Assembly (NCBI GenBank): GCA_003635315.1
Contig: PYJD01000050.1
Span: 46,603-110,602 of the forward strand
From: Candidatus Poribacteria bacterium
Lineage (GTDB): Bacteria; Poribacteria; WGA-4E; WGA-3G
DNA length: 64,000 nt
Reading direction: 5' to 3'
Part shown: one piece after another, positions 400 through 63,123 of the stretch
How positions within the stretch are numbered: position 1 is the first letter of the stretch
Layout of the letters: the number at the start of each line of letters is the position of its first letter
Program-made: the position numbers and the translations under genes
Notes under the pieces: model-generated
What the model was told of the DNA's origin: nothing
The model's input: only the letters and a program-made list of their open reading frames with translations
Database searches by the model: none

Positions 400-975
400 C
401 AAAATTAAAAATAAAATGAATAAAATATCTATATCTAACATCTAACATTACCAAAAGCTACTTTTTAACACAAACTGGAAATCCCTGCTACAGAATATTG
501 GCTAATTATCAGCATATTTCATTAAAGACAACGTCTATGAATAAAAACTTATAGGTAACAAATTAGGTTAACATTCCTAATCATAACCTTTATGAGAAAA
601 ATATTAATAGAGAATTAATGATGAATATCTATAAAAACGTCCTAAATACAAAAAATTCTTTATATCAAAAAATCAACTATAATATACAGGTTGAAATTGT
701 CAAAATCCGTAAGAACAACAAAAACACAAAATCACACTTTTGAGAAATTCTATAATTCTAATTTAAAGTGGAGTAAAGTCAGTCTATGACAGTGGTTAGA
801 GGGGTAATTTACACCAATTTCAATGACACACAATGTGTCAAAAAGTGTAACTTTTTTCCCCTTTTCGACACATGGAGAAAATCAACATTTTCACGATTTG
901 TCCTCTGGGAATTTAGGATTAAAGGTCTGTTTTTGCACCTTATTAATTTGTCTTGATATTAGGATTAAAGTCCAA
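400..975. repeat. Noncoding duplicated element, copy A (homologous to about 32320-32855)
   Basis: Shared segments incl. AAAATAAAATGAA..ACATTACCAAAAGCTACTTTT, AAATCCGTAAG.ACAACAAAAACACAAAAT, AAAGTGGAGTAAAGTCAGTCTATGACAGTGGTTAGAGGGGTAATTTACACCAATTTCAAT, GGGAATTTAGGATTAAAGGTCTGTT. Confidence 0.85.
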
Positions 976-1127
976 TTTTAATTGACAATCGTAATGTAAA
1001 TCTATCAATAGAAAATGGTATAATATCCTTCTCGATGATGAAGAAATTATTATAATTCAGATTTTTTTAGAATGAAACCACACTGAATACTTGTAATGTT
1101 TATTGTTAATCAATTATAATACAAGGT

Positions 1128-4100
1128 ATGAATAGCCAACTTCAAAAACAGTGTCCCAAATGTGGGTTCTTAAATCCAAATTACAAATATTGTGGTGATT
1201 GTGGAAACGTTCTTGATGAGACTGATATACCATTCAGTAGTCAGTCTGCAAGTAATGCTGAGAGAAGACAACTCTCAGTGTTGTTTTGTGATGTAATTGA
1301 TTCTACAGCTTTAACTGAACAATTGGATCCTGAAGACCTACGTCAAGTCCTTGATGCCTATCGTGCAAGTGTCGGTGAAGTGGTTATAGAATATGATGGT
1401 CATATAGCACGGTATTTTGGGGACGGAATATTAGTATATTTCGGTTATCCAATTGCACATGAGGACGCAACACGACGCGCTGTGCAAGCAGGAATAGGTA
1501 TTGTTAATAGTTTAGATGAATTGAATTCGCGTCTAATAGAATCCTTCGGTATTCAAATACAGCTTAGATTAAGTATTGATACTGGATTGGTAGTTGTGTG
1601 GGAAGTCGGGGCACCTATAGGCAATTCTCAGCAGGATTTGTCTTCTCTTCAACGATATCATGGGGATGCAATTGATATTGTTGGTAAAACGCCTAATATC
1701 GCCGCAAGAATGCAACAAGTTGCACCGCCAAACGGAATTGTAGTCGGGGAAACCACACTTCGTCTGATTGAACGTTTCTTTGAATATCAAGATTTGGGTA
1801 CAATTACCTTAAAAGGTATATCTCAACCCGTTCCAATCTATCAGATCCTCCGTGAACACCCAGACAGTATACTTCCAACCTTTAGAAGAGAACTTACAAC
1901 CACACCACACCAGAGTTTTCTAACCCCATTAATTGGTAGAACGCGTCAAGTTGCTGTGCTAAAAGAGCGATGGAAATCGGTGTGTGAATCTCTCGGACAG
2001 GCTGTTTTGCTTGAGGGTGAAGCGGGGATAGGTAAATCACGTATCGTTGCTGTAATTGCAGAGCATGTCAATGAAAGAGAAACACAGATATTAGAATGCC
2101 GAGGATCACCAGACACACAAAACAGTCCTTTATATCCTATCTTAACTCTATTAAAGCAACAACTGCTCAGGTTTGGGGATATGGATTCGGATGATGTACG
2201 TTTTAATAAACTTGAAGAATTCCTTATTTTCCATAATCTTTCACAGAATCTTACCCCTTTACTTGCAGAACTATTAGAAATTGATGGTAATTACCAATCT
2301 GTCGAATTAAAACCCGCACAACTGAGAAGACGCACTTTACAATCCCTCGTACAACTTTTCCTAAAAACTGCTGAGGTTAGACCCCTCTTATTTATAACCG
2401 AAGATCTACATTGGGTTGATCCCTCAACACTGGATTTCCTTCATCTGTTGATTTCTCGAATTCAAAATTCACCTATTCTTGTTATTCTAACTTCTCGTAT
2501 CGAAAGTGATGTATATAAGGAATCCACCCAAGCAGAGGGTAGAGCACGACTCAGAACACTAACCGATTTAGATTGGGTAACCCATATTACATTGAATCGT
2601 CTAAATCGTAAGCAAGTTGCCCAGATGATTCTTGAAGTTGCAGGTGATAAAACTATTCCTGTAGATGTTTCTAAGCAAATAGCATCAAAAACTGAAGGGG
2701 TACCACTTTTTGTAGAAGAACTAACCCGGATGGCTCTTGAATCTGATTTACAGGATATTGATGTTACTACCGAGATTCCAGCGACATTACAAGCATCACT
2801 AACTGCCAGACTTGATCAACTCGGAACACGCAAAGAACTGGTTCAGCTTGGAGCAACACTCGGTAGGGAATGGACTGCAGAACTCCTGTATAAAGTTATT
2901 GTTAGTCTAACAGAAGAACCAGAAGTATCAAACTTTCCTACTACATCAGAGCAATTAACTCCGTTCCATACATTTCCAATACAGAAAGATAATTATTCAG
3001 ATCTTAAACAGGAATTACAGGCACTTGTATCAGAAGAAGTATTGAGATGTCGCAAGACACATGATGATAAAGAGATATATTCCTTCAAACACCCTCTAAT
3101 TCGAGAAACAGCATATCAAGCCTTGTTAAGAAGCACAAGACAGACCTATCATAGAAGAATTGCAACAGTATTAAGAGAATCATTTCAAGATATCGTTCGC
3201 GTACAACCAGAATTGATAGCATATCACTACACCGAAGGAGAACTTCCTGAACGGGCAATTGAATTTTGGCAACAAGCAGGTCTTCGTGCCGTTGAACGAT
3301 CTGCTAATGTCGAAGGTGTAAGACACCTTACACACGGGTTAACGCTCATTGAAACCTTACCTGATTCCCCTGCTCGGGCAGCCCGTGAGTTGGTAATTCA
3401 GACAACATTAGGTCCAGCTCTGATTGCAACTAAAGGCTATGCTGCACTTGAAGTTGAACAAACATATACTCGTGCCAAGAAACTCTTAGAAGCTATGCCT
3501 AACAATGAACGAATGCTTTTACGTTTCCCAATTATGTTCGGGTTATGGCTTTCCGATCTTGTTAGGGCAAAATTACATAACGCACGGGAACTCGGTGAAC
3601 AGTGTTTGATTATGGCAAAACAACAAGAGAATGCTGTCTTAGAAGTTGAAGCACATCGCGCATTAGGTGCTACACTATACTACCTTGGTGAGTTAAAAAT
3701 GGCACGTGCCCATGTAGAGGCAGGTATATCTCTATATAATCCACGACAACATCCTGTTGACACTTTCTTTCACTATCTTGCTGATCCTGGGATGACACTC
3801 CATGCATACGCATCTCCACTCATCTGGTGTTTAGGATATCCTGAACAAGCCGAAGCACAACTACAAGCATCTCAACGCATGGGGGAAGAACGACCACATC
3901 CATTCAGTCAGGTTATTTCTTTACATTTCGGTGCTCTACTATACCAACAACGACGGGAATTAAAAAAGGTTAACTCGTATGCTACGGAATTGATTTCTAT
4001 TTGTCAAGAACACGATTTTACTGTGTGGGAACCTACTGGAAGAATTATGAAAGGATGGACAATGCAAATGAATTCTGATCATTCCGATGAAGAAGGGTTA

Positions 4101-4598
4101 AACCTTATGCGAGAAGGAATCGAAGGGTGGGAGTCTAACCGTTCACGGGTCTTACGTCCAGTATATCTCGGTATGTTAGCACAAGCCTATGGACAAGCAG
4201 GGAAAGTTGATGAAGGTCTACAAACCTTAGAAAAGGCTTTTGAGGCAATTGCTGAAAGCGGGGAACGCACAAATCAGGCTGAACTATACCGTCTAAAAGG
4301 TGAACTTTTATTACTTTCGCTCAACAAAAATCAAAGTGTTTGTTCACCAACTATTATAGGTGATGCAGAAACGTGTTTTTTGAAATCATTGACTATTGCC
4401 CAACAACAAGAAGCAAAATCATGGGAACTCCGAACTACTATCAGTTTATGTAAGCTTATGACAACACAAAATCGACAGAAAGAAGCGTATGACCTATTAT
4501 TACCGATCTATGAATGGTTCACTGAGGGGTATGACACTGTTGATTTGATTAAAGCACAAACCCTTCTGCAATCCTTACAGGAGAAAATTAAAACATGA
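1128..4598 (+). CDS. Zinc-ribbon / class III adenylate-guanylate cyclase / AAA ATPase / TPR multidomain signalling protein
   Basis: N-term CPKCG..YCGDCG ribbon; cyclase core RRQLSVLFCDVIDSTALTEQLDPEDL...DGHIARYFGDGILVYFGYP; Walker A GEAGIGKS; C-terminal TPR-like helices. Confidence 0.92.
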   Translation: MNSQLQKQCPKCGFLNPNYKYCGDCGNVLDETDIPFSSQSASNAERRQLSVLFCDVIDSTALTEQLDPEDLRQVLDAYRASVGEVVIEYDGHIARYFGDGILVYFGYPIAHEDATRRAVQAGIGIVNSLDELNSRLIESFGIQIQLRLSIDTGLVVVWEVGAPIGNSQQDLSSLQRYHGDAIDIVGKTPNIAARMQQVAPPNGIVVGETTLRLIERFFEYQDLGTITLKGISQPVPIYQILREHPDSILPTFRRELTTTPHQSFLTPLIGRTRQVAVLKERWKSVCESLGQAVLLEGEAGIGKSRIVAVIAEHVNERETQILECRGSPDTQNSPLYPILTLLKQQLLRFGDMDSDDVRFNKLEEFLIFHNLSQNLTPLLAELLEIDGNYQSVELKPAQLRRRTLQSLVQLFLKTAEVRPLLFITEDLHWVDPSTLDFLHLLISRIQNSPILVILTSRIESDVYKESTQAEGRARLRTLTDLDWVTHITLNRLNRKQVAQMILEVAGDKTIPVDVSKQIASKTEGVPLFVEELTRMALESDLQDIDVTTEIPATLQASLTARLDQLGTRKELVQLGATLGREWTAELLYKVIVSLTEEPEVSNFPTTSEQLTPFHTFPIQKDNYSDLKQELQALVSEEVLRCRKTHDDKEIYSFKHPLIRETAYQALLRSTRQTYHRRIATVLRESFQDIVRVQPELIAYHYTEGELPERAIEFWQQAGLRAVERSANVEGVRHLTHGLTLIETLPDSPARAARELVIQTTLGPALIATKGYAALEVEQTYTRAKKLLEAMPNNERMLLRFPIMFGLWLSDLVRAKLHNARELGEQCLIMAKQQENAVLEVEAHRALGATLYYLGELKMARAHVEAGISLYNPRQHPVDTFFHYLADPGMTLHAYASPLIWCLGYPEQAEAQLQASQRMGEERPHPFSQVISLHFGALLYQQRRELKKVNSYATELISICQEHDFTVWEPTGRIMKGWTMQMNSDHSDEEGLNLMREGIEGWESNRSRVLRPVYLGMLAQAYGQAGKVDEGLQTLEKAFEAIAESGERTNQAELYRLKGELLLLSLNKNQSVCSPTIIGDAETCFLKSLTIAQQQEAKSWELRTTISLCKLMTTQNRQKEAYDLLLPIYEWFTEGYDTVDLIKAQTLLQSLQEKIKT

Positions 4599-13569: not shown

Positions 13570-13687
13570 CCCTGTAGGAGCGATCTCCGAATCGCGATTT
13601 AACTCAGTGATAGTCGGGAATCGGCCAGAATCATGTTAACTGTCCTCCTACATCTCAAAATGTTCCATTAATTCAAAGTTTACTATA
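13570..13687. repeat. GTAG-type REP pair (REPIN-like), followed by a TIR-like end GTTTACTATA
   Basis: GTAGGAGCGATCTCCGAATCGCGAT ... AGTCGGGAATCGGCC...CTCCTAC ... AGTTTACTATAATT. Confidence 0.65.
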
Positions 13688-22574: not shown

Positions 22575-22878
22575 TATAGTGAACAATAAAATTAATACAA
22601 CATTTTCTATTGGCACAACATATGTTCGCATCCCACAACTCTTCTGTAGGAGCAACTCCAGGTCGCGACAAGGAGGACATTTTCTATTGGATCAACATAT
22701 GTTCGCATCCCACAACTCTTCTGTAGGAGCGAACTCCAGGTCGCGACAAAGAGGACATTTTCTATTGACACAACTTATGTTCGCATCCCACAACTCTTCT
22801 GTAGGAGCGAACTCCAGGTCGCGACAAAGAGGACACTCCTACAAGTAAAGTGTCTAATTAAATCTAATGTTTACTATA
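22575..22878. mobile_element. MITE-like element (TIR TATAGTGAAC / GTTTACTATA) carrying three tandem ~78-bp GTAG-REP units
   Basis: Three copies of TTCGCATCCCACAACTCTTCTGTAGGAGC(G)AACTCCAGGTCGCGACAA.GAGGACATTTTCTATTG. Confidence 0.8.
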
Positions 22879-26627: not shown

Positions 26628-26852
26628 CTCATTTTGTGTGGCATTAAAACCATTTCAGCTGTTATTTTATAGTAATACCATTTCTAAGAAATATTATGAC
26701 ATATCAACACTATCCACCCAACCCGGTAGGAGCGGTTTGCAACCACTCCATAGGTGTCAATTTAGCACCTTTCCAAACATGGTAGGTTCGGTTTGGAACC
26801 GAACAATAGGTGTCAACTTAGTGGTTTATAGTTGTCTGATATTGACGTCTTT

Positions 26853-27079
26853 AGTCCCATAGGGACGGAATGTTTATAGCAAAGGTGATACCCCTATATT
26901 GAGTCCCATAGGGACGGAATGTTTATAGCAAGCCATTATCCTGACCTATCTTTAGTCCCATAGGGACGGAATGTTTATAGCAAAGGTGATACCCCTATAT
27001 TGAGTCCCGTAGGGACGGAATGTTTATAGCAAGCCATTATCCTGACCTATCTTTAGTCCCGTAGGGACGGAATGTTTAT
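26853..27079. repeat. Array of five GTCCC[A/G]TAGGGAC GGAATGTTTATAG hairpin units; 49/52-bp alternating period (101-bp dimer)
   Basis: Units begin at 26853, 26902, 26954, 27003, 27055; intervening segments AAGGTGATACCCCTATATTG x2 and GCCATTATCCTGACCTATCTTT x2; an inverted unit lies at 27176-27202. Confidence 0.92.
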
Positions 27080-27106
27080 AATTGGGTTGTGGTATACACA
27101 TTCCGT

Positions 27107-27345
27107 TCCCGACGAATTCCAAATGCGGATTCGGCGTTGATTCACGGAACTCAAAAGGTTGTATTGACATTTTCTCTATAAACATTTTGTCCCTACAGGA
27201 CTGAGGAGACTTTCTGCATTTGAAAATTCCTTAAGTTGACACCTATGGGGTTGAGGAACGAAACCCACCGAATGCCATACGCGCATTCGGTGTTGATTTG
27301 GACGAATTCCATACGCGGATTCGGCGTTGATTTGGACATGAGACG
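27107..27345. repeat. Cluster of CGAATTCCATACGCGGATTCGGCGTTGATTTGGA modules, incl. two in tandem (about 27274-27338)
   Basis: GACGAATTCCAAATGCGGATTCGGCGTTGATT; CGAATGCCATACGCGCATTCGGTGTTGATTTGGACGAATTCCATACGCGGATTCGGCGTTGATTTGGAC. Confidence 0.8.
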
Positions 27346-31906: not shown

Positions 31907-31935
31907 TTGACATTAGTGAAAACATACGCTACAAT
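31907..31935 (+). promoter_or_regulatory. Consensus-like sigma70 promoter TTGACA-N17-TACAAT
   Basis: TTGACA 31907-31912, 17-nt spacer, TACAAT 31930-31935; reads toward a 1.2-kb mostly noncoding region. Confidence 0.55.
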
Positions 31936-32319
31936 AACAGATAGAGAATAATTACAATACTTATACTAATAACTAAGCTATGAATAAAGAATTTATATAC
32001 AAAGTTATAAAAATATCAATATTTTCTCACATCTTAATAGGGAATTCAAGGTTATGGAATCCATCAAAAACTCTTTTTTATTTTTTCAAAAATCTGTTTT
32101 TGATATTCTTCAAAATAGGTGAAGTAAGAGACAAAAAAGCACAAATCCAATTTTTTAAAATTGTGAAAAAACATCCTTGAACAAAGACTGTGACAGAGCG
32201 GACAGCGGTTTTACCAATGACACAAAATGTGTCAAAAAGTGTAACATTTTAAACATATAAGAATTATTTATATTACTATTGTTAACTGCAAAAATAACGT
32301 TGATTACACACTTTTTCAA

Positions 32320-32855
32320 TAGAATTGAAAATAAAATGAAGAAAATAACTATATCTAATAACTAACATTACCAAAAGCTACTTTTAAGGTAGGGAAGGAT
32401 GGAATCCACCATCCACTGTTTCACACTTCCAATTCCGTACTTTTATGGGTAGAATATAATTAGAGAATAAATGATGACTATCTACAAAAATGATCCTAAA
32501 TACAAAAACTATCTTTATGTCGAGACAACTGCTTTAATATGCAGTTTGAAAAATACAAAATCCGTAAGGACAACAAAAACACAAAATAACACTTTTGGGA
32601 AATTCTTATAAAGTCAATTCAAAGTGGAGTAAAGTCAGTCTATGACAGTGGTTAGAGGGGTAATTTACACCAATTTCAATCCTACAGAATGTAGGAAAAA
32701 GTGTAACTTTTTCCCGTTTTCGTCACTTCTCAACACATGGAGAATATCAACATTTTCACGATTTATCATCAGGGAATTTAGGATTAAAGGTCTGTTCTTG
32801 CACCCTAATTGTTTGTCTGGATATTAGGATTAAATGTTAAATTTACGACTATGAA
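32320..32855. repeat. Noncoding duplicated element, copy B (homologous to about 400-975)
   Basis: Long shared blocks with 400-975; inner hairpin arms differ but stay complementary. Confidence 0.85.
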
Positions 32856-32949
32856 TTCTAATCTTAATTCTAAATGAAAATGTCTCTTTTTTATCGCATA
32901 ACCTTGACAATTCAATCCATCTATTGAATAATGGGAAAAGATTAAAAAC

Positions 32950-33136
32950 TATAGTGAACAACAAAATAAATACTACATTTTCTATTAGTTCAACTTACTT
33001 TCGCGTCCCACACCTCTTTTGTAGGAGCGACCTTCTGGTCGCGAACTCTTTGTTCTTTGTAGGAGCGACCTCCTGGTCGCGATAGACAGGTTACTCCCAA
33101 AAGTACAGTGTCTAATTAAATCAAAAGTTTACTATA
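32950..33136. mobile_element. MITE-like element (TIR TATAGTGAAC / GTTTACTATA) with two GTAG-REP units, same family as 22575-22878
   Basis: TATAGTGAACAACAAAATAAATACTACATTTTCTATTAG ... AGTGTCTAATTAAATCAAAAGTTTACTATA; two GTAGGAGCGACCTYCTGGTCGCGA. Confidence 0.8.
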
Positions 33137-33158: not shown

Positions 33159-36100
33159 ATGAGATATAATTCTATGACACACTCAAAATTGTCAATCTTC
33201 TTAATCATCCTTCCTTTAATCACTACGGTTACTTTCGTGGCAGGTGTTAAGGCACAAGACACAGAAAATAATAATACACCATTACAGGAATTCATTAATA
33301 AAGCAAAAGAGTTAATGGATAGTAACCAATTAGAGGAAGCAATAGAAATCTACGAACGAATTGTGATTGCAGCACCTGATGACGATGAATTACGTTTAAA
33401 ACTTGCAACCTTATACACACGGATAAATCAACACGAAAAAGCTGCACAGATCTACAGCCAACTGCTTGAAGATGACCCTGATAACATTAAATATCAAGAT
33501 GAACGCTTTAAAAGTCTACAAGCTGCTGGGAAACACAACGAAGCACTTGAAATCGTTCAGGTATATATTCAGATGTATCCAGAAGCCGGTGTCCATTACG
33601 CACAACTCGCAAGACTTTATGATGCAGAAGGCAATGATACCTCAGCTATTGAGAATTATAAAAAAGCAACTGTATTCGAATATGGTGACAAAGAAATCTA
33701 TCTCAGACTCGCAGAATACTATTTTCTCAATGAGGACATAGCCGCAGCTGAAGAGGCATTGAAAAATGCCATCTCATACGCCACTGAATGGGATAAAGAA
33801 GTGATTGAACGCCAACTGTTAAACCTTTATCGTTATCAGGGAAATTTTGAAGAGATGTTACAGAAGTTTGAAACGGAAGGCACACTCACACTTGAGATGC
33901 AAACACAACGTGCTCGATACTTTCAAAATGCTGGTTATTTGGAAAAAGCTGCTGTCCACTTTAAGAAAGCTATAGAAATGACAAACAGTTCTTATGAACG
34001 AAATGATATTTCTAATGAATTACTCAATTTATACTCCAAACAAGGTAGAGAAGACTTGGCATTAGCTTTCTACGAGGCAGAAGCTGAAAGGAATAACATA
34101 TCAAAGGATATATCCAGGACTTATAGTTCTTCCGGTATTACAATCCAATTCGGTGATGATGACATACGTAGAACTTTGATAAATGTCTATAAAAATCAAG
34201 AAAAGATTAATGTATTGGAAACCCTTTTCGAAGGTAAACTTGAAAAAGATGTTGATAATCCTACTGTACTTGAAATGCTCGCTGAGATTTACTGGGAGTC
34301 AAACAATTATCAGAAAGCAGCAGAAGCTTATCACACTCTTGGCAATACAAAATCAATGGGACGTAGAAACATTCGTAGTTATTTTCACGCTGCTGCTGCC
34401 TTCCATAAAAATAACCAACCTGATATGGTGAAAACTGTCCTGAACCAAGCCAACACCGCACTTTCATCCACAAACTATAAACAGGACGCCTCATTCCTCG
34501 GCGCGCTTGCTACCATCTGTCTTAATAATAAAATGTACGATCAAGCACTTGAACTTGCTGAAGACGCTGTTTCTCAAGCCAAGGATTGGAAAGAATACCT
34601 CTATGAGATTCTGGCGAAGAGTTACCTCGGAGAAAAACGTTATGAGGACGCTTTTGAAGCATATCAACAGATGGCAATGACTGACCGAAGTTACCATAAA
34701 GACAGAGCAGAAAGGGGTATGAACGATGCAGCAAAAGCCGGAAATCTTTATGAAAAATGGATACCTGAACAACTGAAAAAAGTTCAGGAGAATCCCTACG
34801 ATCCTAAATACGTTCTGGAACTGGCAAAAAGTTACGAAGCAACTGATAATACCAAGGAAGCGGTTGCACAATATGAGAGACTCACAGAACTTGAAGAAGA
34901 AAAAGCACAATGGTACAGAAAACTTGGAACTCTTTATCAAAATCTACCACAGGAGAATAGTAATACAGACACTGTATCTGAAGAATCAAACACAGAACAT
35001 TCGAAAAAATCAATTAATGCCTATGAAAAAGCAATCGAATTGGAACCCACTTCATACCAACTCTACGACCTATTGGCTCAAACCTATATAAAAACCACAC
35101 AGACTCCACAAGCAGAAGCAACCTATCGTAGCGCATTAAACGCACCTCTCACACAAAGTAATTATGATGCCGCCATCCGTGCAATTCTCCAACTATACGC
35201 TGACGATGGACAAGAAGATAAACGCATTTCTATCCTTGAAGAGCTAAAACCGAAAATGGATAAAAGTGCCGTCTTACTTGAACTCTTAGGGGATCTCTAC
35301 AAAAAAGTCGGGGATTCCAAAAAAGCGGAACTCAATTACTCCCAGTGGCTGCAAATTCGACAGAAAGAACTAAATAGTACAAAGAGCATATCATATTATC
35401 GTAGTTTTGCTGATAAACTTCTTGATAAAGGATTATTCCCAGAAACTGCACTTTTTTACGCAAAACGTGCTTTCATTAAAAACACCTATTCTGGATACGA
35501 CTATCTCACAACACTTGGAGGGGCATGTGTTGCAAATGGTCTATACGATGAAGCACTAAGACATTTCAAAAATGCATTAAGTCTCATACTCGATGAGTAT
35601 TATACGGATATGTTATGGAAGGAGATCGCTGAAACTATCAAGTATGTTAATGACAAGGAACGTTACATACAGATGCTGGAGACGCTGATAGATTCTATGC
35701 CTTCGCATAGAACAAATGCGCGCGCAAACATTTATCATGTTATTGCCGATTTCTATGCGGAAAACGAAACTCCCGAATACGTTGAAAATTACCTTATAAA
35801 TACCGGTTTTATACCAGAAACTGCATGGATAACATTAGGTCCATTTGACAATAAGGACAGTGTAGGCTTATTAACTGCTTACATTCCAGAGGAAACCACA
35901 CAAATTGACACAACTGCAATGTACTATGGAAAAGATAAACCCATTCGTTGGAAAAAACCGGACGATGGTAAAAGAAATGGAATGATTTGGCTCGGTAGCG
36001 ACATAGACTGGACAGCTTCTTATGCATGGACAATTGTCTCTTCACCTGATGAACGCGATATAACTATCCGATTTGACAGTGATGACCAAGGGATAATCTG

Positions 36101-36926
36101 GTTAAATGGAAGTAAGGTCTTTAGCCATAATAGAATGGGTGGGGCACAAATTGACCGCTATACCGTTCCTATTACACTGAAGCAAGGAGACAACACCATT
36201 CTCGTCAAGGTTTGCAATGCAACAATACATACCTGCTTTTTTATGCGACTTACGGACATACATGGTACTCCGTTCAAAGATCTAAAATTCATCAAAGCCG
36301 ATGAATTGCTAAACACACCGGCTCCCAAACAAACCTTCCACGTAAATGTCAACCTCGGCTTAGCTGAATACTATCATAAAAACAACATGTACGATAAGGC
36401 TATGGAACAGATGCAGCAAACCGGTACGCTCCACGAAAACTTATGGATGACTCTTGGACCATTTGATAACATCGCAGGAATCGGATATAACACTGAGTAC
36501 ATTCCCGATGACACAACACAGATTGACCCTATCGCAAAATATGACGGTATAGACGAAAAGATTAGTTGGAAAAAATTTACGGATACTGCCTTTGACGGGT
36601 TCATTGATTTCGGTGAAGATATCAATTGGCGGGTTGCTTATGCTTGGACAACCATATCCTCCCCTGATGAGCGAGAAGTATTATTCCGATTTGGCAGTGA
36701 TGACCAATCAAAAATATGGCTAAACAGCACAGAAGTATTTGCAGATACACGCGCACAAACAGCATTACTTGACAAGAACACTATTCCCGTAACCCTTAAA
36801 AAAGGGGAAAATACCATCCTCGTCAAGGTTTGTAATGAAGAAATGTCATGGGGATTTTATCTGCGGATTACAGATACTGATGGGAATCCATTCAAAGATT
36901 TGATATTCAACGATACACAAGACTAA
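33159..36926 (+). CDS. Large secreted TPR protein with two homologous C-terminal beta-sandwich-like domains
   Basis: Signal-like N-term; TPRs; duplicated W[I/M]TLGPFDN..YIPE[E/D]TTQID..W..VSSPDER[D/E]..RF.SDDQ..IWLN..[V]T LK[Q/K]G[D/E]NTILVKVCN modules near residues 890-1050 and 1090-1250. Confidence 0.88.
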   Translation: MRYNSMTHSKLSIFLIILPLITTVTFVAGVKAQDTENNNTPLQEFINKAKELMDSNQLEEAIEIYERIVIAAPDDDELRLKLATLYTRINQHEKAAQIYSQLLEDDPDNIKYQDERFKSLQAAGKHNEALEIVQVYIQMYPEAGVHYAQLARLYDAEGNDTSAIENYKKATVFEYGDKEIYLRLAEYYFLNEDIAAAEEALKNAISYATEWDKEVIERQLLNLYRYQGNFEEMLQKFETEGTLTLEMQTQRARYFQNAGYLEKAAVHFKKAIEMTNSSYERNDISNELLNLYSKQGREDLALAFYEAEAERNNISKDISRTYSSSGITIQFGDDDIRRTLINVYKNQEKINVLETLFEGKLEKDVDNPTVLEMLAEIYWESNNYQKAAEAYHTLGNTKSMGRRNIRSYFHAAAAFHKNNQPDMVKTVLNQANTALSSTNYKQDASFLGALATICLNNKMYDQALELAEDAVSQAKDWKEYLYEILAKSYLGEKRYEDAFEAYQQMAMTDRSYHKDRAERGMNDAAKAGNLYEKWIPEQLKKVQENPYDPKYVLELAKSYEATDNTKEAVAQYERLTELEEEKAQWYRKLGTLYQNLPQENSNTDTVSEESNTEHSKKSINAYEKAIELEPTSYQLYDLLAQTYIKTTQTPQAEATYRSALNAPLTQSNYDAAIRAILQLYADDGQEDKRISILEELKPKMDKSAVLLELLGDLYKKVGDSKKAELNYSQWLQIRQKELNSTKSISYYRSFADKLLDKGLFPETALFYAKRAFIKNTYSGYDYLTTLGGACVANGLYDEALRHFKNALSLILDEYYTDMLWKEIAETIKYVNDKERYIQMLETLIDSMPSHRTNARANIYHVIADFYAENETPEYVENYLINTGFIPETAWITLGPFDNKDSVGLLTAYIPEETTQIDTTAMYYGKDKPIRWKKPDDGKRNGMIWLGSDIDWTASYAWTIVSSPDERDITIRFDSDDQGIIWLNGSKVFSHNRMGGAQIDRYTVPITLKQGDNTILVKVCNATIHTCFFMRLTDIHGTPFKDLKFIKADELLNTPAPKQTFHVNVNLGLAEYYHKNNMYDKAMEQMQQTGTLHENLWMTLGPFDNIAGIGYNTEYIPDDTTQIDPIAKYDGIDEKISWKKFTDTAFDGFIDFGEDINWRVAYAWTTISSPDEREVLFRFGSDDQSKIWLNSTEVFADTRAQTALLDKNTIPVTLKKGENTILVKVCNEEMSWGFYLRITDTDGNPFKDLIFNDTQD

Positions 36927-40190: not shown

Positions 40191-40538
40191 AGTCCCGACA
40201 AATGCCACACGCGTATTTGGCGTTGATTTGGTAGGGACGAGATGTTTATAGAAAAACGTCACATAAACCTCTTGAGTCATGTAGGGACGGAATGTTTATA
40301 GCACAAGTGTATACACCGTAATGAGTCCCGTAGGGACGGAATGTTTATAGAAAAACGTCACATAAACCTCTTGAGTCATGTAGGGACGGAATGTTTATAG
40401 CAAGCCGTTATCCTGACCTTTCTTGAGTCATGTAGGGACGGAATGTTTATAGCAAGTCGTTATCCTGACCTTTCTTGAGTCCCGACAAATGCCACACGCG
40501 CATTTGGCGTTGATTTGGTAGGGACGAAATGTTTATAT
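40191..40538. repeat. Second array of GTC[CC]GTAGGGACGGAATGTTTATAG hairpin units (six units; first and last carry a nested hairpin insert)
   Basis: Units start 40191, 40275, 40324, 40374, 40426, 40478; recurring segments AAAAACGTCACATAAACCTCTTG x2, CAAG[C/T]CGTTATCCTGACCTTTCTTG x2. Confidence 0.92.
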
Positions 40539-55240: not shown

Positions 55241-55380
55241 ATATGGTAGAATATACAATTTATTCTACATACTGACTTGTAGGAGGGAATTCCGATTCCC
55301 GATTACCAAAGGGTGTGATCGCGATTCGGAGATCGCTCCTACAAGTAATGTGTGTAATTATGTCAATATTTCACCATAAT
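55241..55380. mobile_element. MITE-like element (TATGGTRRAATAT TIR) with two opposing GTAG-REPs (REPIN arrangement)
   Basis: ATATGGTAGAATATACAATT..GTAGGAGGGAATTCCGATTCCCGAT..ATCGCGATTCGGAGATCGCTCCTAC..AATATTTCACCATAAT. Confidence 0.8.
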
Positions 55381-55394
55381 AGGCTTTATTGCAT

Positions 55395-55834
55395 TACTAT
55401 AGTTTGGACAGTTTTAAGAATTAAACAAAGACTTGAAAGTCCATTCTTGATGTTTAGACACATCCCACACTGCTGGTGCTTGGGATTTATTGTAATACCA
55501 TTTCTATTTGATTATATGCCATTATATGACACTCGCCTCTGTAGGAGGGAACTCCGATTCCCGATCTTCTTTACAACGGTTAATGGAAAAACGATTATTA
55601 GAAATGGTATTAGATACATTCACCAGACTGTGGTTTAATGAGAACTTATTAATTGATGAATTAAACCACAACCTGAAACTTGCACAAAACTATTACTAAT
55701 GACCAAATCGGTAGCACCAGCGGTGCGGAAGGTGTGTAGAAACGTAAATGCCACAAGTAAACGAGCACCAGCGGTGCGAAAGGTGTATGTATACAGTTGT
55801 TAATGAAATTACGAAAATTGTCCAAACTATAGTA
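55395..55834. mobile_element. Element with 21-bp near-perfect TIR (TACTATAGTTTGGACARTTTT) enclosing another MITE at 55493-55612
   Basis: TACTATAGTTTGGACAGTTTT (55395-55415) and AAAATTGTCCAAACTATAGTA (55814-55834). Confidence 0.75.
55493..55612. mobile_element. 120-bp MITE, TAATACCATTTCTA / TTAGAAATGGTATTA TIRs, internal GTAGGAGGGAACTCCGATTCCCGAT
   Basis: TIR and internal palindrome read directly. Confidence 0.82.
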
Positions 55835-55857: not shown

Positions 55858-56634
55858 TTAAGAATCATTCCTATCGTTACGGTAGATCGTGACATTTATA
55901 AAGGTGTCAAGCAACGAAAAATTGGGTTCAGCATTCCCATTCTTCGATAACAACCTTCTTGCAATTGGGATACCCATTCCAAACCGTTGCACAAAACCCA
56001 AAGTACGCATGGCTTCTGCTAAATTTGGATTACGATAATCAGTTGCCCCTGGATCACCAAAATTATCTTTTGTCACTCCACCGAACACCCCTCCTGGACT
56101 TAGAATCTCAATTCTATTGTTGAACCAATTTACGCGAACAGGCGCGTGTGTACCTTCATATGTTCTGTGCATTATAGCATTACGGGTTATCTGCTGGAGT
56201 GCTTCTAAAGGATAATCAGCTGTTCGCTTTTCAATCGGTCCAGAAGTGATATCAACCGCAACTCGGTTATGTCCCATCAGTTTCTCATCTAATCGACGAA
56301 TCTGGTCTGAAATTGCCCCCCGTATTTCCTCACTGTCAAAGATCTCATCTGTTAGTTCATTTCCATCAATTCTTAGAAATTGGATATATGCTCCGTGGAG
56401 AAAATCTTGTGGACGCTTACCAATTGTCAGAATTCCAAGAACTGTAGGTATAGGTTCATCCACGGATGCTATCATCTTCGTTGCTGCTAATTGCTCATTT
56501 ACAGTCCTTTCATTCTGTTCTAAAATTTCTTGAGAAACAGCCTGAGGAAGATATTCGTAAATAAATAATGCTAAATTTAGATCGGATATGTTAGAAGATG
56601 GAATCGGACATAAGTCAAAATGTTGCATTTTCAT
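55858..56634 (-). CDS. RecG-C-terminal-like/COG2865 ATP-binding protein, possibly lacking its N-terminal AlbA_2 domain
   Basis: PTVLGILTIGKRPQDFLHGAYIQFLRIDG..YPLEALQQITRNAIMHRTYEGTHAPVRVNWFNNRIEILSPGGVFGGVT..NPNLAEAMRTLGFVQRFGMGIPIARR. Confidence 0.82.
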   Translation of the reverse strand: MKMQHFDLCPIPSSNISDLNLALFIYEYLPQAVSQEILEQNERTVNEQLAATKMIASVDEPIPTVLGILTIGKRPQDFLHGAYIQFLRIDGNELTDEIFDSEEIRGAISDQIRRLDEKLMGHNRVAVDITSGPIEKRTADYPLEALQQITRNAIMHRTYEGTHAPVRVNWFNNRIEILSPGGVFGGVTKDNFGDPGATDYRNPNLAEAMRTLGFVQRFGMGIPIARRLLSKNGNAEPNFSLLDTFINVTIYRNDRNDS

Positions 56635-56644
56635 TCCAATTAAT

Positions 56645-56917
56645 ATTATGGTGAAATATTGACATAATTATACACATTACTTGTAGGCGGGGAATGCCCA
56701 ATAAGGCATTCATACCGTTGATGCGATCTCCGAATCGCGATCACACCCTTTATACACATTACTTGTAGGAGCGATCTCCGAATCGCGATCACACCCTTTA
56801 TACACATTACCTGTAGGAGCGATCTCCGAATCGCGATCACACCCTTTGATAGTCGGGAAATGGAATTTCCTCCTACAAGTCAGTATGTAGAAAAAATTGT
56901 ATACTCTACCATACTAC
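56645..56917. mobile_element. Expanded inverted copy of the 55241-55380 element with three tandem GTAG-REP units
   Basis: ATTATGGTGAAATATTGACATAATTATACACATTACTTGTAGG ... CCTCCTACAAGTCAGTATGTAGAAAAAATTGTATACTCTACCATA; 50-bp period TATACACATTAC[T/C]TGTAGGAGCGATCTCCGAATCGCGATCACACCCTT. Confidence 0.82.
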
Positions 56918-59111: not shown

Positions 59112-61022
59112 CTAATCCGCAACCTTCCATAGACCCTTACCCAATTTTGCCCCTAATAATACGCCGATGAATGTATAAGCAAAACCTTCAATGAATATGC
59201 GAAGAACAATATACCAATCTGCAAAAAACAGCCGGTAAAACAGAATTGAAAGTTGAAAATCTACATATACTGCAATCGCATCACATATACCAAGAACAAT
59301 TCCCCATAGAAGTAAACCACGTCTCCTTACAAGGAAAAAACCCATTTCTAACAAGATAACACTTGTTCCAGTGTAGATAAACGTCATCGGTGTAAATAGA
59401 CCGAATGTAATACCACCGAGTAGTAGTCTTACTGCTGAAACAAGAAGGATAACCCCTCCCTTGTTAGAGGCTTGCACATTTTCTTCTGACTTATCATTAG
59501 GAGAACCGTAAATGTAAATTAACAATGCCGTAAGTAAGGCATAGTAGAGTGTCTCATTGATTATTCCAGTAACCAGAACAGAAATAGGTCCAAGAAAAAC
59601 TGTGATAAGATTCAGAAAGAGTGTTGATGGCACAACAACTGCTACAAAAATCGTAGTACCGAACAGAGCAATGACAATAAGCTGCTTTGTTGAAAAACGG
59701 GTGAAAAACTGTCTATGAAATCTTAGTAAAACAACAAGACCAATCGTACTCGAAAGAATTGCCAATCCACAAACGAATAACGCATGTCGGTTTGGTACAA
59801 TAATGTGTAACGGTCTCTTTTCACTCAGAACTGTTGTATCACTTCCCCAGATTTTGACCGTTATCTCACGTTCATATTCACCCGCCTTCGCTGATAAAGC
59901 ATGAAAATAGATCGGGAGGGGAATTGGGGTCAGTTCACCTGCTGGGAGACTTGCAAAACTAACACTCCGATCTGTCCCTGCATTTACCTCATCTGGTGGA
60001 GCAAGAAAACGAACTGGTTCACCTGTTGACATATCCCGATTGATGGATGCTACAACGACATGGATTGTCTCATCACTCTTATTACGGATATGGACTGTTT
60101 GATAGACTGTTGGGGTATATTTATCATTCTGTGGTGATGATAACCAACCAAAGAGTGGACGTGGATAGAAGATAGAATCTTCTCGTTGTCTTGGATCCGC
60201 TATACCTGCTGCATCTGTCGGCATTTTTACCGATTCAATGGATAAATATTCAGAGATTTCTGGTACAGTTGCTATACTGAATTGGACAATTCTCCGCTGC
60301 TCCCATTCCCTTCCATCTACTGAGTTAAACCGAACAATAGCAGATATATCTTGATTTTCCAATTTGTCCATTTCAACCATAGAAAGTTCTGGGATCTTCA
60401 CAACTAAATCACGGTGCCATACCTCTGACGCAACAGAAAGTGAATCGGTTATTGAATAACAAGTTAGATCCTCTGTTGTTTCCACCTTCCATCTTTCTGG
60501 AACACGGATTACTTTCAATGTTCTTGGCAAACATAATTCAAGGTCGAATGTAGCAGGGGTATTTCCATTTTTAACGATGACTGTGGCTGTCATCTCACTA
60601 CCTTGCAAAAGGAGTGCCCTCTGATTGTTCTCTGCAGAGGATTGCTGTGTAGAGACATTTCTTGTTCCGTAAGGAATAGCTATTTCTAAATCACCACGAG
60701 AAAAGTCGCGTGGGGCTGACACTGTTTTCACGATAACCTGATCTGTAAACAAGGTTGCTTCAAATCTATAACTTTCCCCCTCCTTCCATTCAAAATAGAG
60801 AGACTCTATTTGTCGTGGATGGGTTGGAAAACGAATCTGAGCAACCATCGTCCCATCAGAATTATAGGTAGACACCTTCTTAATCGGAGCATTTTCAGTA
60901 AATTGTAGTTTTGCCCCGAGTGGTAAGAAGGTTATCTGCCATAAGTCTGCTTCGTTTAGGGGTTCGGTTGAACATCCAACGAATAGTAATGGTAGGAATA
61001 GCAAAAATTCCCATTTTCTCAT
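59112..61022 (-). CDS. Lipoprotein-type N-terminus plus extracytoplasmic domain fused to a C-terminal ~6-TM domain resembling ECF transporter S components (true start 61022; ORF-track 5' extension is repeat-derived)
   Basis: MRKWEFLLFLPLLFVGCSTEP lipobox; C-term RFSTKQLIVIALFGTTIFVAVVVPSTLFLNLITVFLGPISVLVTGIINETLYYALLTALLIYIYG..LLLGGITFGLFTPMTFIYTGTSVILLEMGFFLVRRRG. Confidence 0.78.
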   Translation of the reverse strand: MRKWEFLLFLPLLFVGCSTEPLNEADLWQITFLPLGAKLQFTENAPIKKVSTYNSDGTMVAQIRFPTHPRQIESLYFEWKEGESYRFEATLFTDQVIVKTVSAPRDFSRGDLEIAIPYGTRNVSTQQSSAENNQRALLLQGSEMTATVIVKNGNTPATFDLELCLPRTLKVIRVPERWKVETTEDLTCYSITDSLSVASEVWHRDLVVKIPELSMVEMDKLENQDISAIVRFNSVDGREWEQRRIVQFSIATVPEISEYLSIESVKMPTDAAGIADPRQREDSIFYPRPLFGWLSSPQNDKYTPTVYQTVHIRNKSDETIHVVVASINRDMSTGEPVRFLAPPDEVNAGTDRSVSFASLPAGELTPIPLPIYFHALSAKAGEYEREITVKIWGSDTTVLSEKRPLHIIVPNRHALFVCGLAILSSTIGLVVLLRFHRQFFTRFSTKQLIVIALFGTTIFVAVVVPSTLFLNLITVFLGPISVLVTGIINETLYYALLTALLIYIYGSPNDKSEENVQASNKGGVILLVSAVRLLLGGITFGLFTPMTFIYTGTSVILLEMGFFLVRRRGLLLWGIVLGICDAIAVYVDFQLSILFYRLFFADWYIVLRIFIEGFAYTFIGVLLGAKLGKGLWKVAD

Positions 61023-61053
61023 AACAGAAACCTTTATTTTCCCGGCATCCCCT

Positions 61054-61235
61054 GTAGGAGGGAACTCCGATTCCCGATCTCCGCTGTAGCAGGGAACTCC
61101 GATTCCCGATCTCCCCTGTAGCAGGGAACTCCGTTCACGATCTCCCCTGTAGCAGGGAACTCCGTTCACGATCTCCCCTGTAGCAGGAAACTCCGTTCAC
61201 GATCTCCCCTGTAGGAGGGAACTCCGATTCCCGAC
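61054..61235. repeat. Tandem array of six 31-32-bp GTAG[G/C]AGGGAACTCCG(A)TTC[C/A]CGATCTCCCCT units
   Basis: GTAG starts at 61054, 61086, 61118, 61149, 61180, 61211. Confidence 0.9.
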
Positions 61236-61261
61236 ATCCTCTACCCATGAAACTGAAATGT

Positions 61262-62613: not shown

Positions 62614-62741
62614 ACAAAGGCGACAATCTGTTTTATTTGAATCCGGAAATTCTGAATATGCTTGTATTCTTTATTTGCCAGGAGACTGATGTGCTTCTGT
62701 TCCACCGCTTTCCCGCGAAAGCAGATTCGTGAAACTGGATC

Positions 62742-62910
62742 CAGGCAGGTCTCCTGACTTACGATCTTTCCGCTGTACCTTCCCATCAATCCTTGACAGT
62801 GGCATATTCAGTGGAATTACCTGACATAGGTAATAATCGTTCACAGTGGCGGGGCCGTGGCGGATTCTCACCGCGCTTCCCTATTCTCCGTACTTCGGCA
62901 CCTGAACCGT
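62742..62910 (-). ncRNA. Cobalamin (B12) riboswitch aptamer
   Basis: Minus strand GGTTCAGGTGCCGAAGTACGG..GGGAAGCGCGGTGAGAATCCGCCACGGCCCCGCCACTGTGA..GCCACTGTC..GGGAAGG..AAGTCAGGAGACCTGCCTGG, classic cobalamin-box features. Confidence 0.95.
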
Positions 62911-63123
62911 ATATATTTTGTTGTAACGCTAATATTATACTTCAGACCACTACTTTAAGCAAATTATAGTTTTGGAATCAAAAGATATGGATATCTATTT
63001 GCCCCAATGGCGTTCCTATCGGGATGAACTCAACAGAGCACCCCTGGCACATGAAAACTGGCGATATTGATACAGTATAGCGAATTTGAAGATTCAGAAC
63101 TTACGCAAAAAGCGAATATTCTT

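Follow-up and report, generated by a model that had tools for sequence, protein, structure and literature searches.

The window analysed here is the whole 64,000-nt stretch of contig PYJD01000050.1 from Candidatus Poribacteria bacterium, the host genome being 4.33 Mb in 50 contigs. Three copies of an intergenic element (A, B and C) lie in the window on the + strand, copy A upstream of a gene for an adenylate/guanylate cyclase - AAA - TPR protein and copies C and B upstream of a gene for a large TPR protein. The features are as follows.

580..980, +: copy A, a family I element, delimited by the family consensus and by repeat coverage, which rises to ~25 copies across it (1.26 Mb of the host genome)
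809..814, +: copy A, 5' arm of the possible outer stem P1, TTACAC, which pairs with 845-850
824..840, +: copy A, inner stem P2, TGACACA-CAA-TGTGTCA, GAC class (position check, pair counts)
840..857, +: fixed 3' motif of copy A, AAAAAGTGTAAC and then a T tract, unchanged throughout 50 family I copies
1091..1120, +: the downstream gene's own promoter, TTGTAA-N18-TATAAT, kept in the sister species
1128..4598, +: adenylate/guanylate cyclase - AAA - TPR protein gene
31907..31935, +: sigma-70-like promoter TTGACA-N17-TACAAT
32140..32285, +: copy C, a family II element, missed in the preliminary description of this DNA
32218..32234, +: GAC-class inner stem of copy C, TGACACA-AAA-TGTGTCA, with AAAAAGTGTAAC continuing to 32245
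32440..32860, +: copy B, a family I element (repeat coverage, family consensus)
32680..32696, +: CCT-class inner stem of copy B, TCCTACA-GAA-TGTAGGA (pair counts)
32696..32712, +: fixed 3' motif of copy B, AAAAAGTGTAAC and then a T tract
33159..36926, +: large TPR protein gene

The left end of copy A may lie in a weaker related stretch at ~395-470. The preliminary description had presented copies A and B as a duplicated element with nested stems. A position check located the arms of both copies exactly where they had been placed, and the three inner base pairs do differ between the copies on both arms. The statement that the two copies share their outer stems is correct for TTACAC/GTGTAA but not for AGGGG/CCCCT, which is private to copy A; at that site CCCG stands in copy B and TTTTTTCACTTTTT in most copies of the family. 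Nor is the element simply duplicated: the combined pattern, which gave 0 matches in shuffled windows, found the third copy at 32215-32245, and 145 core matches were present genome-wide when no more than three mismatches were allowed (0 for a reversed control pattern). BLAST recovered 40 copies of the family of copy A across the genome.

Many copies were also found in a sister species of the same genus, Candidatus Poribacteria bacterium SB0202. The shared core comprises AAT, a 7-bp stem with a triloop, AAAAAGTGTAAC and WTTTT. At least four families (I-IV) were distinguished, with ~35 nt common to all and flanks that are mostly unalignable by BLASTN; farther upstream, a multiple alignment points to distant homology, families I and III being parted from II and IV by a 10-nt indel. 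Element length is roughly 150-600 nt and nesting with other repeats is frequent. A covariance model trained on 55 copies and used to search 58 genomes of the bacterial family returned at least 77 matches in the host genome, 73 in SB0202 and 2 in G007, a third species. Other genome-wide statistics given here rest on 1.26 Mb of the host genome together with selected loci.

The bare 15-mer RAAAGTGTAACWTTT occurs in 44 of the 85 genomes of the phylum, with up to 40 copies outside the host and SB0202. In other Poribacteria it mostly follows an A tract (AAAAAAAATAATTTGG) without this hairpin, and the nearest gene usually lies on the opposite side, i.e. the orientation is reversed; an AAACCC/GGGUUU stem proposed in those genomes was rejected for want of covariation. 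At locus L364 of genome G028, from another Poribacteria genus, two inverted AAAGTGTAACATTT motifs stand 107 nt apart with AACCCAGT...AAGGG between them, and this pair is a related but different element. Searches of the openly available literature found no description of an element like this from Poribacteria, a weak sign that it may be new.

Lineage-specific positions and bursts suggest that the element is mobile. A viral origin was rejected, the exact core being absent from IMG/VR contigs, as was a diversity-generating retroelement with adenine-directed mutagenesis, the flank substitution spectrum being general. The short ORFs in families I and II show frameshifts from copy to copy and stop close to the core, and thus encode no conserved protein; a coding element was rejected accordingly. 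Separately, family II copies of the host carry a perfect palindrome, AAAAAGTTACGATTTCGTAACTTTTT, at about -370 from the core, and this palindrome has no gene polarity (8:7).

The core is conserved far above its surroundings. Among 23 family I copies the flanks differ by 18-22%, whereas AAT, ACA, ATGT and AAAAAGTGTAAC show no differences; the low-difference zone breaks off at +35, and the difference just beyond it is 23%. A tree of 50 family I copies built from flanks only has a star shape and terminal branches with a median length of 0.1, and 0 of 1,100 core positions in these copies had changed, against ~110 expected without constraint by our own estimate. When 1.26 Mb was searched by BLAST with flanks only, 24 family I copies were recovered, every one with an intact core. 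Core conservation in family I is therefore not an artefact of the search pattern. In 1.2 Mb of tiles from the host genome, the covariance model detected 47 copies, none scoring less than 65.7 bits, and no decayed relics under that score down to E 0.05. The core looks like a maintained control site rather than junk.

The inner stem was paired in 97% of cells in an alignment of 55 diverse copies from two species. Stems of the classes GAC/GTC, CCT/AGG and GTC/GAC were seen, the latter two being those of SB0202, and one G007 copy possesses an A7/T7 stem within the same flanks. The CCT and GAC classes are each represented in families I, II and III. Pair 65/77 was A-U in 23 of the 55 copies, U-A in 13, C-G in 9 and unpaired in 9, and pairs 64/78 and 66/76 change in concert. 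Both-sided changes occupied 52 cells, compared with 18.3 in shuffles (0 of 500 shuffles as high; two stems tested), and sliding the pairing partner abolished the excess. The middle stem position admits A/A and T/T combinations. On the flank tree the CCT class is scattered, requiring 11 changes for 12 copies, and a single CCT clade was rejected (p-AU 0.0023). Selection on the paired inner stem, as put forward in the preliminary description, is supported by the extent of pairing, the double changes, the decoupling of stem class from flank phylogeny and the invariance of the core; additional copies without covariation, which that description had named as evidence to the contrary, did not appear among the 55 examined. 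The outer stem P1, for which 0 double-sided changes were found, was rejected as a supported helix, its 5' arm in copy A lying within a conserved stretch (2.6% difference). Pairing of a further helix, HP1 (CAGUN-NNN-NACUG), was weak at 71%.

The element has a fixed polarity. In the host genome 44 of 47 copies share the strand of the next gene, the contexts being tandem (24:3), divergent (20) and convergent (0), and in SB0202 63 of 68 copies face the next gene (two p16x65 loci, from another isolate, were left out). Two control repeats of the same genome gave 57:37 and 31:22, and a third (27:6) follows the upstream gene instead. The host repeat GGTAGGTGCGGTTTGTAACCGCA trails the 3' end of the upstream gene, on that gene's strand in 40 of 53 cases, the opposite of this element. 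Replication-strand bias was rejected as an explanation, because copies occur on both strands within one contig with gene polarity retained. Paralogous genes carrying the repeat along were likewise rejected, since the downstream genes are mostly unrelated and include housekeeping genes, among them what we take, on reading the sequence, to be ileS, hslV, metH, dus, cydA and lnt.

Comparison with the sister species placed the element relative to native promoters. Five intergenic regions measure 782-1533 nt in the host genome versus 73-372 nt in SB0202, and the gap at hslV is short in relatives but long and filled with repeats in the host. Two SB0202 inserts are absent from the host genome, and copy positions were not common to the two species at the few loci compared. 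Where the gene promoter is recognisable, homology to the sister species resumes at or just before the -35 box; at these loci the element has therefore been inserted, and its core sits, upstream of the gene's native promoter, the distance between core and promoter being ~165-490 nt. TTGACA-N17-TACAAT faces the core from 320-590 nt before it in about twelve copies of families I and II, the promoter at 31907-31935 of the window among them, and most family III copies have a near-consensus promoter ~56 nt past the core. No promoter common to all copies was found.

Adjacent cores point the same way, and most are separated by 412-1014 nt. Same-strand cores within ~1 kb belonged to different stem classes in 8/8 pairs of the host genome and 4/4 of SB0202, a pattern noticed post hoc, after inspection of the data; perhaps ~10 of these 12 pairs are independent, because some are copies of one composite. 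The CCT class makes up 20/88 cores in the host and 76/94 in SB0202, so that random pairs would differ in ~35% and ~31% of cases, respectively. A looser pair, at 1213 nt, consists of two sub-variants of the GAC type.

We tentatively favour, with slightly less than even confidence, a mobile intergenic element that carries a cis-acting dyad site for a putative DNA-binding protein. A small, non-coding, lineage-amplified element would then provide, through its core, a cis-acting control site wherever it landed. The site would consist of a 17-bp inverted repeat around a triloop-sized centre and then the fixed AAAAAGTGTAAC-WTTTT. Its two half-sites would most likely be recognised by a putative dimeric protein on double-stranded DNA, with action on the DNA rather than on RNA and altered transcription of the next gene as the presumed outcome. 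The two half-site classes, TGWCACA and TCCTACA, might correspond to two protein specificities, and the fixed sequence would give direction, such that the site persists only where it faces a promoter from upstream. A dimeric DNA-binding protein is favoured because it would account for the symmetry of the half-site changes, the location ahead of promoters, the polarity and the tolerance of the middle position, A/A and T/T combinations being as expected of a degenerate half-site.

The palindromic operators of a global regulator offer a likeness: a 17-bp dyad with symmetric half-site changes, situated upstream of sigma-70-like promoters of many unrelated genes. They differ in that the dyad here lies inside a long repeat, is joined to an asymmetric fixed 12-mer and stands at a variable distance from the promoter. 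Such variable spacing would be unusual for a bacterial activator site and the fixed 12-nt part is longer than a dyad needs; the lack of shared positions with the sister species (few loci compared) and the oppositely oriented, hairpin-free RAAAGTGTAACWTTT of other Poribacteria also argue against a DNA site. A bolder version of the DNA site, which we consider doubtful, holds that this is a mobile directional cis-control element whose exchangeable recognition stems serve as separate addresses. Near copies would then have to differ in class, more than 100 unrelated genes would have had their upstream regions rewired in a lineage-specific manner, and each copy would subsequently have come under selection.

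The same covariation as from an RNA would be expected from a DNA dyad bound by a protein or from a hairpin used in transposition. A structured RNA, the reading of the preliminary description, which we judge somewhat unlikely, would on our account be transcribed on the + strand from a promoter inside the element, P2 with its A-rich 3' strand and U tract acting as a weak terminator, attenuator or small RNA, and P1 (UUACAC/GUGUAA) alternating with a hairpin AAAAAGU-GUA-ACUUUUU. The covariation of P2 survives from that proposal and is consistent with it, as are the strict polarity, the promoter facing the core in about a dozen copies, the A7/T7 hairpin of the third species and an excess of wobble-type over A-C departures at P2 on this strand. 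Conversely, the outer stem does not covary, the copies share no promoter, that of family III comes after the core and the gene's own promoter lies downstream of it, and folding z-scores are modest and equal for the two strands (-2.08 and -2.12). The covarying stem followed by a T tract recalls the cis-regulatory and small structured RNAs of Rfam, yet no Rfam family matched the element and only one short helix, P2, is supported. A simple terminator was rejected: a consensus scan found none at copy A and, at copy B, one match with 3 G-C pairs.

Alternatively, the hairpin and its fixed flanking letters could be a mobility signal recognised in single-stranded form by a Y1 transposase (IS200/IS605 or REP-associated), with the covariation reflecting recognition of shape; we regard this as unlikely. 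Compensatory changes between arms have been reported for REPIN hairpins (PMC3116915). REP/REPIN sequences with their RAYT (TnpA-REP) transposases resemble the present element as high-copy, lineage-amplified intergenic hairpins with such changes, and the bursts, the lineage-specific positions, the sharing of only ~35 nt among several families and the presence of Y1 transposase genes in the genome all fit a mobility signal. The constant difference in stem class between neighbours is what transposition immunity might give. However, dead copies should decay at the rate of the flanks, and the core does not; the orientation to the next gene is fixed. The GTAG/GGAG-type foot tag of REP/REPIN is replaced by AAT and AAAAAGTGTAAC in the copies read, and neighbours are direct where REPINs form inverted doublets. 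The link to a Y1 (RAYT) gene is also lacking: PF01797 occurs in 16 of 18 genomes of the genus and the core in only 2-3, and no core was found near the Y1 genes in the sampled DNA (the C43 genes). Gene conversion that homogenises the core and swaps the stem, with no function, could account for the scatter of stem classes over the flank tree but is very improbable: the low-difference zone ends abruptly at +35, conversion would make neighbours alike when they always differ, and no arm-mixed hairpin (GAC with AGG) was present among the copies read.

REP-like, GTAG-tagged palindromes of the form TGTAGGAGCGA...TCGCGA occur separately in the window, at 13571-13597, 22654-22830, 33018-33082, 55319-55354, 55538-55564, 56762-56836 and 61008-61257. 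These may serve as substrate for the Y1/RAYT transposases that the genome itself encodes (four PF01797 matches).

MITEs, ERIC, NEMIS, Correia, BOX and RUP sequences are small, non-autonomous, non-coding intergenic repeats of many copies that can alter neighbouring expression. The element is alike in being small, non-coding, intergenic and present in many copies. It departs from them in its strict co-orientation with the downstream gene and in the conservation of the core, and no terminal inverted repeat or target duplication was found, its edges being mosaic and the insertion points, placed by comparison with SB0202, inexact.

Short intergenic repeats are commonly interpreted as selfish DNA in decay. 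In the present case selection seems to maintain the core of each copy, the orientation of the core follows the next gene, and its stem is altered only on both arms together. Should the core indeed be a control site, many housekeeping genes would have received a regulatory signal from a mobile element, a clear instance of this in bacteria and one from an uncultured phylum of sponge symbionts whose regulation is almost unknown. The two stem classes and the heterotypic neighbours furnish directly testable predictions.

Other repeats and signals were recorded in passing. Tandem units TGAGTCCCGTAGGGACGGAATGTTTATAGC recur with ~50-nt spacing at 26809-27113 and 40231-40484 of the window, and a tandem array of a 29-bp unit, CAATCTAACAGAATGTGCTACAACATGTA, lies at L085, around C23:220535. 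A long inverted repeat (55242-55357/56798-56913; 116 nt, 92%) surrounds a 258-aa ORF at 55858-56634 on the - strand and is a possible IS. A cobalamin riboswitch is present at 62727-62920 on the - strand, with a score of 102 bits.
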